Source of the DNA: Marivirga salinae
GTDB lineage: Bacteria; Bacteroidota; Bacteroidia; Cytophagales; Cyclobacteriaceae
Assembly: GCF_030503855.1 (NCBI RefSeq)
Contig: NZ_CP129971.1
Span: forward strand, 2,232,001 to 2,296,000
DNA length: 64,000 nt
Reading direction: 5' to 3'
Position 1 is the stretch's first letter, and every line of letters begins with the position of its first letter. Below, in pieces: positions 1,319 to 60,191 of the stretch. The position numbers and the translations under genes are program-made. The notes beneath the pieces were generated by a model, which ran no database searches, had not been told where the DNA came from, and saw only the letters and a list, made by a program, of their open reading frames with translations.

Positions 1319-3006
1319 ATGGAAAATTTTGTTGTATCAGCAAGGAAATATAGACCAAAAGGTTTTGATGAGGTAGTAGGGCAGAAGCATATTACTACTA
1401 CTTTAAAAAACGCAATTGACAACGATCATTTGGCGCAATCTCTTTTGTTTTGTGGGCCAAGAGGGGTTGGTAAAACTACTTGTGCTAGGATTTTAGCAAG
1501 GCTGATCAACGATTTTGAAGTAGATAACATGGAAGGTTCTTCCTCCCTTAATATCTATGAGCTGGATGCTGCTTCAAATAACTCTGTGGATGATGTTCGG
1601 AATCTTATTGACAAAGTAAGAGTACCGCCACAGCATGGAAAATACAAAGTCTATATCATAGATGAGGTTCACATGCTTTCGAATGCAGCCTTTAATGCTT
1701 TCTTAAAAACATTAGAGGAGCCACCTTCTTACGCTATTTTTATTTTAGCAACTACTGAAAAGCATAAAGTAATTCCGACTATTCTTTCAAGATGTCAGAT
1801 TTATGATTTTAATAGAATAAAAGTTTCGGATATATCAGATCATTTAAAAGATATAGCAGAAAGGGAAGGGATAGAAGCAGAAGAAGCCGCTTTACACCTA
1901 ATTGCTCAGAAAGCGGATGGTGCTTTGCGTGATGCGTTATCCATTTTTGATTTGATAGTTACTTTCTCTCCTGATAATAAAATTACCTATCAGACAACTA
2001 TAGATAATCTCCATATTTTAGATTACGATTATTATTTTAAAGTAACAGATGCTTTAAATAATGAAAAAATACCTCAAGCTTTATTACTTTTTGATGAGGT
2101 CTTGAAAAATGGCTTTGATGGACATAATTTCATTAATGGACTTGCTGCCCATTTCAGAGATTTATTAGTTTGTAAAGACGAATCTACTTTACAGTTATTA
2201 GAAGTTTCAGAACAGGTGAAAGCACAATACAAGCAGCAAGCTGCTGAAGTTTCTCCTTCCTTTATACTTTCAGGTCTTCAAGTTTTAAGTCAAACGGATC
2301 AATCTTATAAGGCAAGTAAAAATCAAAGGTTGGCAGTTGAATTAGCATTGATGAAACTAGCCAAAATTAATAGTGCAATTGATTTGGCAAAACAGAATGA
2401 TGCTGTTTTAAAAAAAAAAGTGAGCTAAGTCAGTCTGAACAAGAAGATTCAACATCAAGTGAAGCAAAAAGCACCTCCCTTGCAGATCAAATTTCTGCTA
2501 AGGCAACCCAAAGCAAACCTTTAAAATCTTCTCCTTCCATTCCAAAACCAGGAGAGAAAATTAAATCTACTCCAGTAGAGTCCGCTTCCGAAAAGAATGC
2601 AGAAGATGCTAAGCAGGATTTGGATGATAATGACAATACTGAAGAAGGTAAGCAATTAAATGAGGGAGAATTAAAGTCTGCTATCTTAGAGTTCATCAAA
2701 AACGATAAAGTGGGTCCCGTAATCGAGAATTCTTTAAAAAACTCCGTAAAGCTAAAAGGGGAGATGATTACGGTAGAATTAACTAATCCTGTTGAGGTAG
2801 ATGGAATTGAAAAAATAAAGGCTGATTTACTTACATTTATTAGAAAGAAATTTCAGAATAAGGCTATTCAATTACAGCATCAAGTTAATATTGAAAAGGC
2901 GGCTGAAAGACCTTATACCCCTAAAGAAAAGTTCGAGGCCATGCTAAAAGAGAACCCTATTTTAGGTAAACTCAGAGATACTTTTGGTCTCGATACTGAT
3001 TACTAA
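1319..3006 (+). CDS. dnaX: DNA polymerase III subunit gamma/tau, joined across a frameshift in an A10 run
   Basis: Clamp-loader ATPase of the replicative polymerase. Frame 0 runs from ATG 1319 to TAA 2426-2428 (369 aa) and holds the AAA+ core: Walker A GPRGVGKT (46-53), Walker B VYIIDEVHML (111-120), SRC box with R158. Reading then continues in the -1 frame from the run of ten A at 2410-2419 to the stop at 3004-3006, giving a linker rich in Ser, Glu and Lys and a C-terminal tau domain; the joined product is 562 aa. The short form would be gamma-like. A real slippage site is favoured because both halves are intact and homologous to one DnaX; a sequencing error in the homopolymer is the alternative. 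The zinc module usual after Walker A is missing: residues 61-80 contain no Cys. Confidence 0.9.
2406..2420 (+). promoter_or_regulatory. Putative dnaX slippage site (T4-A10-G)
   Basis: Frame-0 codons are GTT TTA AAA AAA AAA GTG AGC TAA. Inserting one A in the transcript, or a -1 ribosome slip, changes the reading to AAA AGT GAG CTA AGT and opens the tau C-terminus. I see no Shine-Dalgarno-like stimulator upstream and no strong stem-loop downstream, unlike E. coli dnaX. The long A run resembles the transcriptional slippage known for Thermus dnaX. Confidence 0.7.
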
Positions 3007-57966: not shown

Positions 57967-59760
57967 TTAGTATGACTCTGTGAATTTGACATCTATTTCT
58001 CCTTTAGAATGGTTTCGTTCAGAAAAGGTATAAGTTTTCTCTGGGTCTTCCCAGTGATACATATAATTTGGATCCCATACTTCATCTTCAATATTACTAA
58101 ATTTAATTGTGCCTGCCCAATCAGCAGTAACAGTTCCTTCTGCACTACCCCACTTCGTATCTTTAGTACCTGTTAATTTGACTTTTGCAGCTAGATTTAG
58201 TTCTGAATTACCTTCGCTAGCCTTATAATCGTATTCTACTATACCAAATACACATATGTAACCATCATCTTCGGCCTTCCATTGAAAAAACTTTTTATTT
58301 ACTTCCGCTGTTACAATATCGTTATTATCACCAAATCCCCAATCGTTATAATTCGTTGTTTTAAATTCAAACTGTTCATCATAAGTACGTGTATCTGGAT
58401 TGTTTTCGGATTGAAGCACTAAGTGAATACGCCAATCTAAATCTCCTAAGTACCATGGCTCTACTTTATTTTTATACTTAATATGGTCAAGAGTAAAAAA
58501 TTTATCAGAGCTTCTCTTTGAGTAATAAGTACCAATTAATTTAGATGATTCTAGTCGCCCACATTGATTGAAAGCACTCAATTTAATATTAATGTGTTGA
58601 CCAGAAGAATAACCTGTGATTGTTCCGCTTAAAGTATTGCCTGAGTTAATGGTTTTTCTTCTGCGATTTGCTTCTCCATCGGCCCAGTAATCTAAGTGAT
58701 ATCCTGAAGCATTATCCACTTTATTCCATTGCACCTCTATACCAGTAGGTTTAGGAGTTACAGCAGTTGCCATTGGAATTTCAGGTAAACAATGGTCGGT
58801 TGAAATACCTATAAAAGAAATGCCTTTGCAATTATAGGCTTCAATTTTATAGTAAGATACTGCATCATTTATTGAGGGCGAATAATTGAAGTAGGTAGAT
58901 TCTGTATTTCCAATGAAACTATAGCTAGCTGTATAATCTGAATATTTATAAATTCTATACGATACTGCATTGCTTGCCGCAGTCCAATTTAATTGCAGGT
59001 AGTTTCCAGAAAGTGTCGCAGATCCAGATTCAATTTTCCCAGGTACACTTTCGTATTCGCATTCTATTGGGTCTAAAAGAATTGGTTCTTTTGTAATGCT
59101 TCTACTAGAAATTTCGGTTCTCAAAGCATCGTTTGTTTTTTGTCCTTTATAATCAAAATCATCTGGTACGCTTTCAGATTTTCTCAAGACTATAACAGGG
59201 TCCTGTGGTGGATCATTTGCATCTATTTTTATTTTTTTTCCTTGATTATCATAACCTTTTAAGAATTTTAATTCCTTTTCATCAAATTTGTTTGGAAGAT
59301 AATAGACATTAGGTATTTGAGTATCTGGATTCCATTTGTCAAAATTGATTGGAATACTAATTGTTAAATTTGGATCATCTTTTTCAATTTGAGCTAAATC
59401 TTTATTAGGATTCTTTTTTGAAATCAACAATATGGATTCAACTTCCTCTTTAAATTGAAAATTTTCATTTTTATAATCTTCAAATATCTTTCGAAGATAG
59501 ACATTAAAATCACCATCAATTTGCTTCTGTGCTTCTTCATATAGGTAATTTCTAAAATCACCATTATTCAAAGCTTCAGCTAAGTTTTTTGTTATTTTAT
59601 TTCGGTTTTTATTATTGTTGTCTTCTTTATTGTAATATTCAAACTGATTAGATTTTATGTTTACGTTTTCGGTAAATTTATCGAATTCTTTATTTTCTTG
59701 ACAAGAGATTGTTAGAACTATAAGAATTATTAATGTAGTGTTTTTTATTAATTGGTTCAT
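57967..59760 (-). CDS. Fibronectin type III-containing lipoprotein
   Basis: A 597-residue lipoprotein from the inner ATG (complement of 59758-59760), with lipobox LIVLTISC; the frame to 59826 adds 22 residues before it. After the Cys comes a helical charged region (about 25-170; NLAEALNNGDFRNYLYEEA), a Pro/Asp-rich linker (DANDPPQDPVIVLRK), and two FN3 modules at about 230-310 (LNWTAASNAVSYRIYKYSD) and 320-400 (EVQWNKVDNASGYHLDYWAD). The C-terminal 190 residues are Tyr/Trp-rich and beta-like with no match I know. The N-terminal region recurs in other Bacteroidota surface lipoproteins. A T10 run lies 5 bases upstream of the start codon. Confidence 0.75.
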   Translation of the reverse strand: MNQLIKNTTLIILIVLTISCQENKEFDKFTENVNIKSNQFEYYNKEDNNNKNRNKITKNLAEALNNGDFRNYLYEEAQKQIDGDFNVYLRKIFEDYKNENFQFKEEVESILLISKKNPNKDLAQIEKDDPNLTISIPINFDKWNPDTQIPNVYYLPNKFDEKELKFLKGYDNQGKKIKIDANDPPQDPVIVLRKSESVPDDFDYKGQKTNDALRTEISSRSITKEPILLDPIECEYESVPGKIESGSATLSGNYLQLNWTAASNAVSYRIYKYSDYTASYSFIGNTESTYFNYSPSINDAVSYYKIEAYNCKGISFIGISTDHCLPEIPMATAVTPKPTGIEVQWNKVDNASGYHLDYWADGEANRRRKTINSGNTLSGTITGYSSGQHINIKLSAFNQCGRLESSKLIGTYYSKRSSDKFFTLDHIKYKNKVEPWYLGDLDWRIHLVLQSENNPDTRTYDEQFEFKTTNYNDWGFGDNNDIVTAEVNKKFFQWKAEDDGYICVFGIVEYDYKASEGNSELNLAAKVKLTGTKDTKWGSAEGTVTADWAGTIKFSNIEDEVWDPNYMYHWEDPEKTYTFSERNHSKGEIDVKFTESY

Positions 59761-60191
59761 TTTATAAAAAAAAAATGTATAGGTTTTACTTTGACTTATT
59801 TTAAAATTTCTATAAATGAATATCATGGGGGAGGACGGGGCATAAGGTTTTGGTTTTATTACTTTAAAAATGTTTGTTGATAAATGTAATATATATTAAT
59901 TTTTATAAAGGTAATTTAATGTCGAAAAAAATCAAACTTTCAGTAAGTTTATTCTAAAGGTTATTGAAATTATTGCAAATAGGCACAAAGCCCTGAAATT
60001 GTCTGTAGTCAAACTACCTGTCTTTAAAAACGGAATTGCCAAAATAAAATTCTTGGCTTAGGTAGATGATTACGACACTATTGTTCAGATTTATTCAGGT
60101 TCAAATTATTTGAATAATATTTAAATATATTCTAGATTTAATAGTTTACTGTCAAAATAAAAGTCAATTTTCAATTAGACATAATTAACCC
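59761..60191. other. Non-coding divergent region
   Basis: A 431-base gap between the FN3 lipoprotein and the alpha/beta hydrolase. It contains a run of ten A (59766-59775) just upstream of the lipoprotein start and GGGGGAGGACGGGG near 59825. No convincing promoter pair, hairpin or ORF was found elsewhere in it. Confidence 0.6.

Follow-up and report, generated by a model that had tools for sequence, protein, structure and literature searches.

A run of ten adenines at the gamma/tau junction of Marivirga salinae dnaX: probable transcriptional slippage and its relatives across Bacteroidota

The complete 4.49 Mb genome of Marivirga salinae contains a dnaX gene in which the gamma and tau parts lie in different reading frames. 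The window, that is, the whole 64,000-nucleotide stretch of DNA analysed, contains the following features at this locus.

1319 to 2428, + strand: zero-frame open reading frame of dnaX, encoding gamma; 369 aa with an AAA+ ATPase, lid and domain III, from profile and PDB matches
2389 to 2409, + strand: stem-loop AAAACAG-(AATGATG)-CTGTTTT, 7 bp; candidate nascent-RNA stimulator
2410 to 2419, + strand: putative A10 slippage run, seen in the sequence and kept in 10 of 10 genomes of the genus
2419 to 3006, + strand: tau-specific extension in the -1 frame, 195 codons plus TAA, from a profile match, the substitution pattern and an alignment
2421 to 2423, + strand: TGA predicted by frame reading to give a gamma-like end to mRNAs that have lost one A or gained two
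2426 to 2428, + strand: gamma stop TAA in the template register, from the sequence and the list of open reading frames

The gene starts with an ATG at 1319, and at the junction its zero frame reads ...GTT TTA AAA AAA AAA GTG AGC TAA. The junction tract is made up of T4 (2406-2409), A10 (2410-2419) and G (2420), and the gamma stop follows the A10 run after 6 bases, or two codons. The -1 frame begins with the AGT from 2419 and is open for 195 codons, until the TAA at 3004-3006. Joined to the gamma part it gives a protein of 367 + 195 = 562 aa. The third frame reads AAG TGA directly after the run. Thus, with zero, one or two added A's there are 2, 194 and 0 open codons past the run, and the two non-tau frames close at 0 and 2 codons. 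The coordinates, length and frame that the preliminary description gave for a 369-aa frame stopping 6 bases past the A run are all confirmed, and the frames, together with a profile match, bear out its tau-like C-terminus in the -1 frame to 3006, with 562 aa in total.

The gamma part matches the dnaX model TIGR02397 with 384.8 bits against a cut-off of 250 (4.1e-115), and its matches in the PDB are E. coli-type gamma/tau chains, the best at 3.8e-54. With gamma alone the model NF011531 scores 646 bits, under its cut-off of 685, and the 195-aa tau piece, searched separately, matches positions 430-613 of the 614 in the same model (2.7e-18). The two pieces, searched separately, thus match opposite ends of one DnaX model, gamma its N-terminal and tau its C-terminal part. 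The tau-specific region gave no Pfam match at 0.001, and the best hit of its C-terminus in a PDB profile search, a PolC chain with E = 0.2, was not significant. The genome holds two other dnaX-like matches, both AAA+, with up to 32% identity over part of the query; a second close dnaX match was not found in it. The dnaX loci of the nearest named contigs are those of Marivirga sp. LH_M32 (98%), M. sericea (96%) and M. atlantica (84%). As a separate observation, the segment of the window's DnaX between ARILARLIND and NIYELDAAS (gamma residues about 50-80; window 1319-1600) is free of cysteines; it is the site at which L065 and similar relatives carry a cysteine-rich stretch, probably a zinc module; in this comparison the motif search missed 127 of 325 loci and some segments were shortened.

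In all ten Marivirga genomes the run is A10, its register is the same and tau lies in the -1 frame; each of them also shows a 372-codon open frame at dnaX. Over all pairs of the ten, substitutions in the tau C-terminal part at codon positions 1, 2 and 3 number 1908, 1157 and 3134; the tau frame evolves as coding sequence, with looser constraint in the first 80 alignment columns than in the remainder. A further alignment, A1, sets the last 130 aa of the tau extension beside 59 relatives. Exact A10 runs occur 18 times in the 4.49 Mb, both strands counted, and ten A's are matched twice in the window against 9.3 expected from dinucleotide shuffles. These low counts, taken with the conservation throughout the genus, indicate that such runs are rare and that the one in dnaX is kept.

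Other A10 runs are recorded here for their own sake. The only other one in the window, at 59766-59775, reads T10 on the minus strand, five bases ahead of an in-frame ATG at which the open reading frame called at 57967-59826 may really begin. Elsewhere in the genome two further exact runs lie inside long sense frames, L395 (C1:598374) and L400 (C1:1748051), 31 and 65 codons past the first ATG; these could be more slippage sites.

The comparison of run length across relatives that the preliminary description had proposed was carried out on 367 distinct dnaX loci, gathered from genus, family, order, class, phylum and named contigs after removal of two other AAA+ loci (L002 and L003) and of loci identical around the run. 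Four homologue searches matched 188, 96, 137 and 116 genomes, only part of which was sampled: up to 30 loci per search, closest first, and 200 further regions. Nineteen extra family genomes were chosen for a long frame; from the remaining genomes 66 of 107 were taken for the class, with short frames favoured, 63 of 66 for the order and 52 of 86 for the phylum. In this non-random sample of the phylum, 326 of the 367 loci have 9-12 A's at the gamma/tau junction, and in 267 of those 326 the run is exactly 10. The run is present in 10/10 loci of the genus, 42/42 of the family, 72/73 from named contigs, 76/85 of the order, 93/104 of the class and 33/53 of the phylum outside the class. All 16 loci (L335-L350) of one family outside the class, f87, carry it. 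Elsewhere between the start of the gene and a point 600 nt beyond the junction, runs of at least nine A's number 17 in 365 genes (622 kb). A G+C content of at least 55% in the 900 nt upstream was found at 30 loci, 21 of which still have the run. The 41 loci lacking a run of nine at the junction, 20 of them outside the class, include L173, L354-L356, L362-L371 and L375-L376. Subtracting these 41, and one run-bearing locus with no clear tau frame, leaves 325 usable loci.

The position of tau relative to the run varies. One extra A is needed to reach the tau frame at 178 of the 325 loci, none at 139, and one fewer or two more at 8, counts that are not population frequencies, since the sample was picked partly by frame length. 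Among 126 divergent representatives the same three relations are found in 51, 70 and 5; the first A of the run falls in codon phases 0, 1 and 2 in 21, 53 and 52. The length of the run centres on 10 whatever the register. On a gamma tree made with FastTree the frame relation changes at least 46 times, a rough figure since the tree has no support values. Gamma parts that are 99% identical are followed by A10 with tau out of frame in L029 and by A11 with tau in frame in L035, in nearly the same sequence context at the run; other pairs at 99% are L025 (A10) with L026 (A9) and L340 (A9) with L342 (A10), and in further pairs, such as L341 and L342 at 93%, both members have A10 and the register differs. 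Single A9 or A11 cases could be homopolymer sequencing errors. Run length is equal in 26 of the 62 cross-register pairs with at least 80% identity (pairs that share loci and are not independent), so miscounted homopolymers cannot explain all of them. The default product predicted from the DNA, gamma or tau, switches repeatedly among relatives.

A -1 ribosomal shift uses two frames, whereas a slipping polymerase fills three, so that with the latter all side frames must be closed. In the loci needing one extra A, the frame left unused by a -1 shift meets a stop no more than 5 codons on in 160 of 178, and the figure for control positions in the linker is 41% (p 1e-35); in the representatives it is closed within the same distance in 43 of 51 (p 1e-8). 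Where tau is in frame, the two side frames are closed early in 132 and 110 of 139 loci, against 36% and 27% in controls. Early stops in both non-tau frames are what transcriptional slippage would predict.

Folding is stronger in the 30 nt ahead of the run than in other parts of the gene. In the window, 2389-2395 pairs with 2403-2409 in the top-scoring stem of the 33 nt upstream (MFE -4.2 kcal/mol), whose 3′ arm ends on the last base ahead of the A run. The preliminary description had seen no stimulator here; this holds downstream, where the fold, with z +1.34, is equalled or bettered by 189 of 200 shuffles, and fails upstream, where this 7-bp stem abuts the run. For the survey, each locus was scored by its best stem ending within six bases of the run, and the null was made by swapping codons for synonyms drawn from the same gene. 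The representatives score 9.83 against 7.93 (sd 0.36) in this null, z 5.3, and 34.9% of them reach at least 12 against 17.6%. Six control windows are weaker, although not all flat (z -0.6 to 2.7), with smaller excesses at -33 and -99 (z 2.7 and 2.1). A swap control is partly confounded, its -99 control lying above the null (7.27 vs 6.21), and we therefore rely on the synonymous-codon null. A score of at least 12 is found in two of the ten Marivirga loci, the window (L001) and L012. Related loci have stems of differing sequence at the same site, for example L056 and L059 as against L072 and L306, and in family f71 one stem is kept in 8 of the 10 loci listed, which show all three frame relations. 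We infer that the stem-loop in the nascent RNA, where present, promotes slippage; it is likely a helper in part of the loci and not a requirement.

We propose that Marivirga dnaX probably makes gamma and tau by programmed transcriptional slippage on the A10 run, as follows. RNA polymerase would stutter on the run and release mRNAs with a spread of A-run lengths. Those whose run is 10 long, or departs from 10 by a multiple of 3, would give gamma; those with 11 or 8 A's would give tau; and those with 9 or 12 would run into the immediate TGA and yield a gamma shortened by one or two residues. With these three outcomes every product would be gamma-like or tau. The same run in many relatives would yield tau by default and gamma by slippage. 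Because slippage would randomise the frame, the DNA register would be nearly free to drift. We infer the slippage and its efficiency from what is observed, namely the sequence, frames, stops and conservation. It is the best supported reading because the run occurs in any register, tau stands in all three frame relations to it, the third frame stops early and no downstream structure is found in the window.

The main alternative is that transcripts are faithful and that tau is made by programmed -1 ribosomal frameshifting on the in-frame heptamer A_AAA_AAA inside A10, which we regard as unlikely. The two tRNA-Lys genes found in the genome are both UUU, with no CUU (30 of the 34 tRNA hits typed), a state that, as in E. 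coli, allows ribosomal slippage and that Atkins et al. 2016 link to it (PMC5009743). SD-like 4-mers within 20 nt upstream of the run are found at 123 of 325 loci, and six other windows give 8 to 41 of 325; these 4-mers start mostly at -8 to -4, very near the run, and the stretch ahead of it is Glu- and Ala-rich, with Glu codons favouring GAG somewhat (47% vs 38%). The 60-nt windows downstream show slightly stronger folding than controls (mean z -0.42 and -0.46 vs -0.06 and -0.19), with z under -2 in 10-12% vs 2.5-6% (120 of the 325 loci). Chlorobium phaeobacteroides has potential E. coli-like stimulators in the account of Atkins et al. (PMC5009743), and in our sample L088 (a MAG, JAGQYI010000083.1) has A7 in GAA AAA AAG TAG, the E. 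coli-type heptamer A_AAA_AAG directly before the gamma stop, so that some lineages may have switched machine, from transcriptional to ribosomal. Against ribosomal shifting as the general route stand the lack of conservation of register and direction, the early closure of the third frame, the absence of a downstream fold in the window, 8 loci among the 325 whose tau cannot be reached by a -1 shift, and a run length centred on 10 in every register. No Rfam frameshift element scored over its cut-off in the window; the four matches were all far below gathering scores, and one of these, a Gag/pro frameshift site about 300 nt downstream with 18.1 bits against 70, was taken as chance. In the tRNA searches ARAGORN called six tRNA-Cys(gca) in a row beside a tRNA-Arg (L418: 77-1450, near C1:2838208 of the genome); at L418 RF00005 finds the tRNA-Arg alone, and the six may be tRNA-like repeats.

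Long A runs are slippery for both RNA polymerase and the ribosome. On this ground both layers could operate, with polymerase slippage giving most of the frame mixture and ribosomes also slipping on the A-rich mRNA, which would be compatible with the weak SD-like and downstream-fold signals. We think this less likely again than ribosomal shifting by itself, as the comparative data need transcriptional slippage alone and none demands a ribosomal shift. Homopolymers of about ten A's are prone to sequencing error, and A9, A10 and A11 all occur among near relatives, so an artefact (a true run of 11 A's) or a pseudogene that has lost tau has to be considered. This is very improbable and is rejected for the genus: the ten Marivirga assemblies agree on A10 and on the split, the tau frame is under coding constraint, and A10 is found in other registers in other assemblies. 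The single uninterrupted frame with 9 or 11 A's, which the preliminary description had named as the result that would count against it, is seen in none of the ten. The least probable reading of all is that the downstream frame is expressed by internal initiation, for which there is a TTG-started open reading frame of 128 aa at 2620-3006, or that the cell makes no tau. Against it, gamma and the tau part share one frame at 139 of 325 loci, and in E. coli the tau-specific part works attached to the ATPase.

Taking transcriptional slippage as the preferred reading, we lean, with some reserve, towards the broader proposal that slippage on about ten A's is the ancestral and still prevalent route to gamma and tau in Bacteroidota, the sister classes of Bacteroidia included. 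The run, the closed side frames and often the stem-loop would be under selection, and the register would drift almost neutrally, having changed at least dozens of times. Some slippage genes would then pass for ordinary ones, their tau being in frame by chance. If this is true, an essential replication gene of a major phylum depends on inaccurate transcription, and the DNA-level reading frame of dnaX is largely irrelevant, which would explain dnaX genes that seem short or frameshifted. It would also bear on the debate about gamma function, since gamma production seems to be retained while the default product changes, and slippage could be tested on the variety of run lengths, registers and stem-loops that these loci offer in nature.

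The comparison with known systems begins with E. coli dnaX, which shares with Marivirga the production of gamma and tau from one gene and an A-rich site between the domains. E. coli uses a -1 ribosomal shift at A_AAA_AAG with an SD-like element and a downstream stem-loop. In contrast, the Marivirga zero frame reads TTA AAA AAA AAA GTG and has no A_AAA_AAG, no downstream stem-loop is found in the window, and the roles of the products are reversed. Thermus thermophilus dnaX, known here by description, uses transcriptional slippage and is alike in its long run, nine A's, and in the nearby stops in both other frames (PMC1088944, PMC5009743). In Thermus the template frame encodes tau and slippage gives gamma, the reverse of Marivirga: the window has the run of at least nine A's, with gamma instead of tau in the template frame, and the Thermus-type arrangement with tau in the template frame is found at 139 of the 325 sampled loci. 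Roseiflexus IS630 (Penno et al. 2015), as summarised in PMC5009743, offers a likeness to the upstream stem, in that slippage there is driven by a nascent-RNA stem-loop lying immediately 5′ of the motif. That motif is T5C5, with slippage undetectable without its context, whereas in dnaX the motif is a homopolymer and only some loci have a stem.

The closest precedent is the two-ORF dnaX of Antonov et al. 2013 (PMC3711429), described for 17 genes from 12 genera, none annotated as such in RefSeq. Like the Marivirga gene, these have gamma in the zero frame and tau in the -1 frame, and nine have 10 A's, with 9 in Chloroherpeton and 8 and 7 in two Chlorobium; Marivirga may be among the nine A10 species. 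Transcriptional realignment, the Thermus mechanism, was proposed for them, with mixed direction among orthologues taken as its mark, and Atkins et al. 2016 (PMC5009743) discuss the two-ORF dnaX beside the E. coli and Thermus cases. The window shows the gamma stop just after the A run and tau in the -1 frame, and the split is conserved in 10/10 of the genus, with one extra A needed at 178 of 325 wider, non-randomly sampled loci. It follows that the Marivirga split belongs to a kind already described: slippage, as the preliminary description had it, is the best supported reading, and the third lineage that it thought would be notable is not new. Among the open-access matches listed, we found no survey of dnaX slippage over Bacteroidota and met neither the phylum-wide spread, nor the register drift, nor the upstream stem-loop. 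The cluster of Antonov et al. consists of split genes only, to which our survey adds single-frame relatives, the closed third frame, the drift in register and the stem. The architecture itself is not new; what is added here is its breadth, the repeated switching of the default product and the upstream stem-loop.
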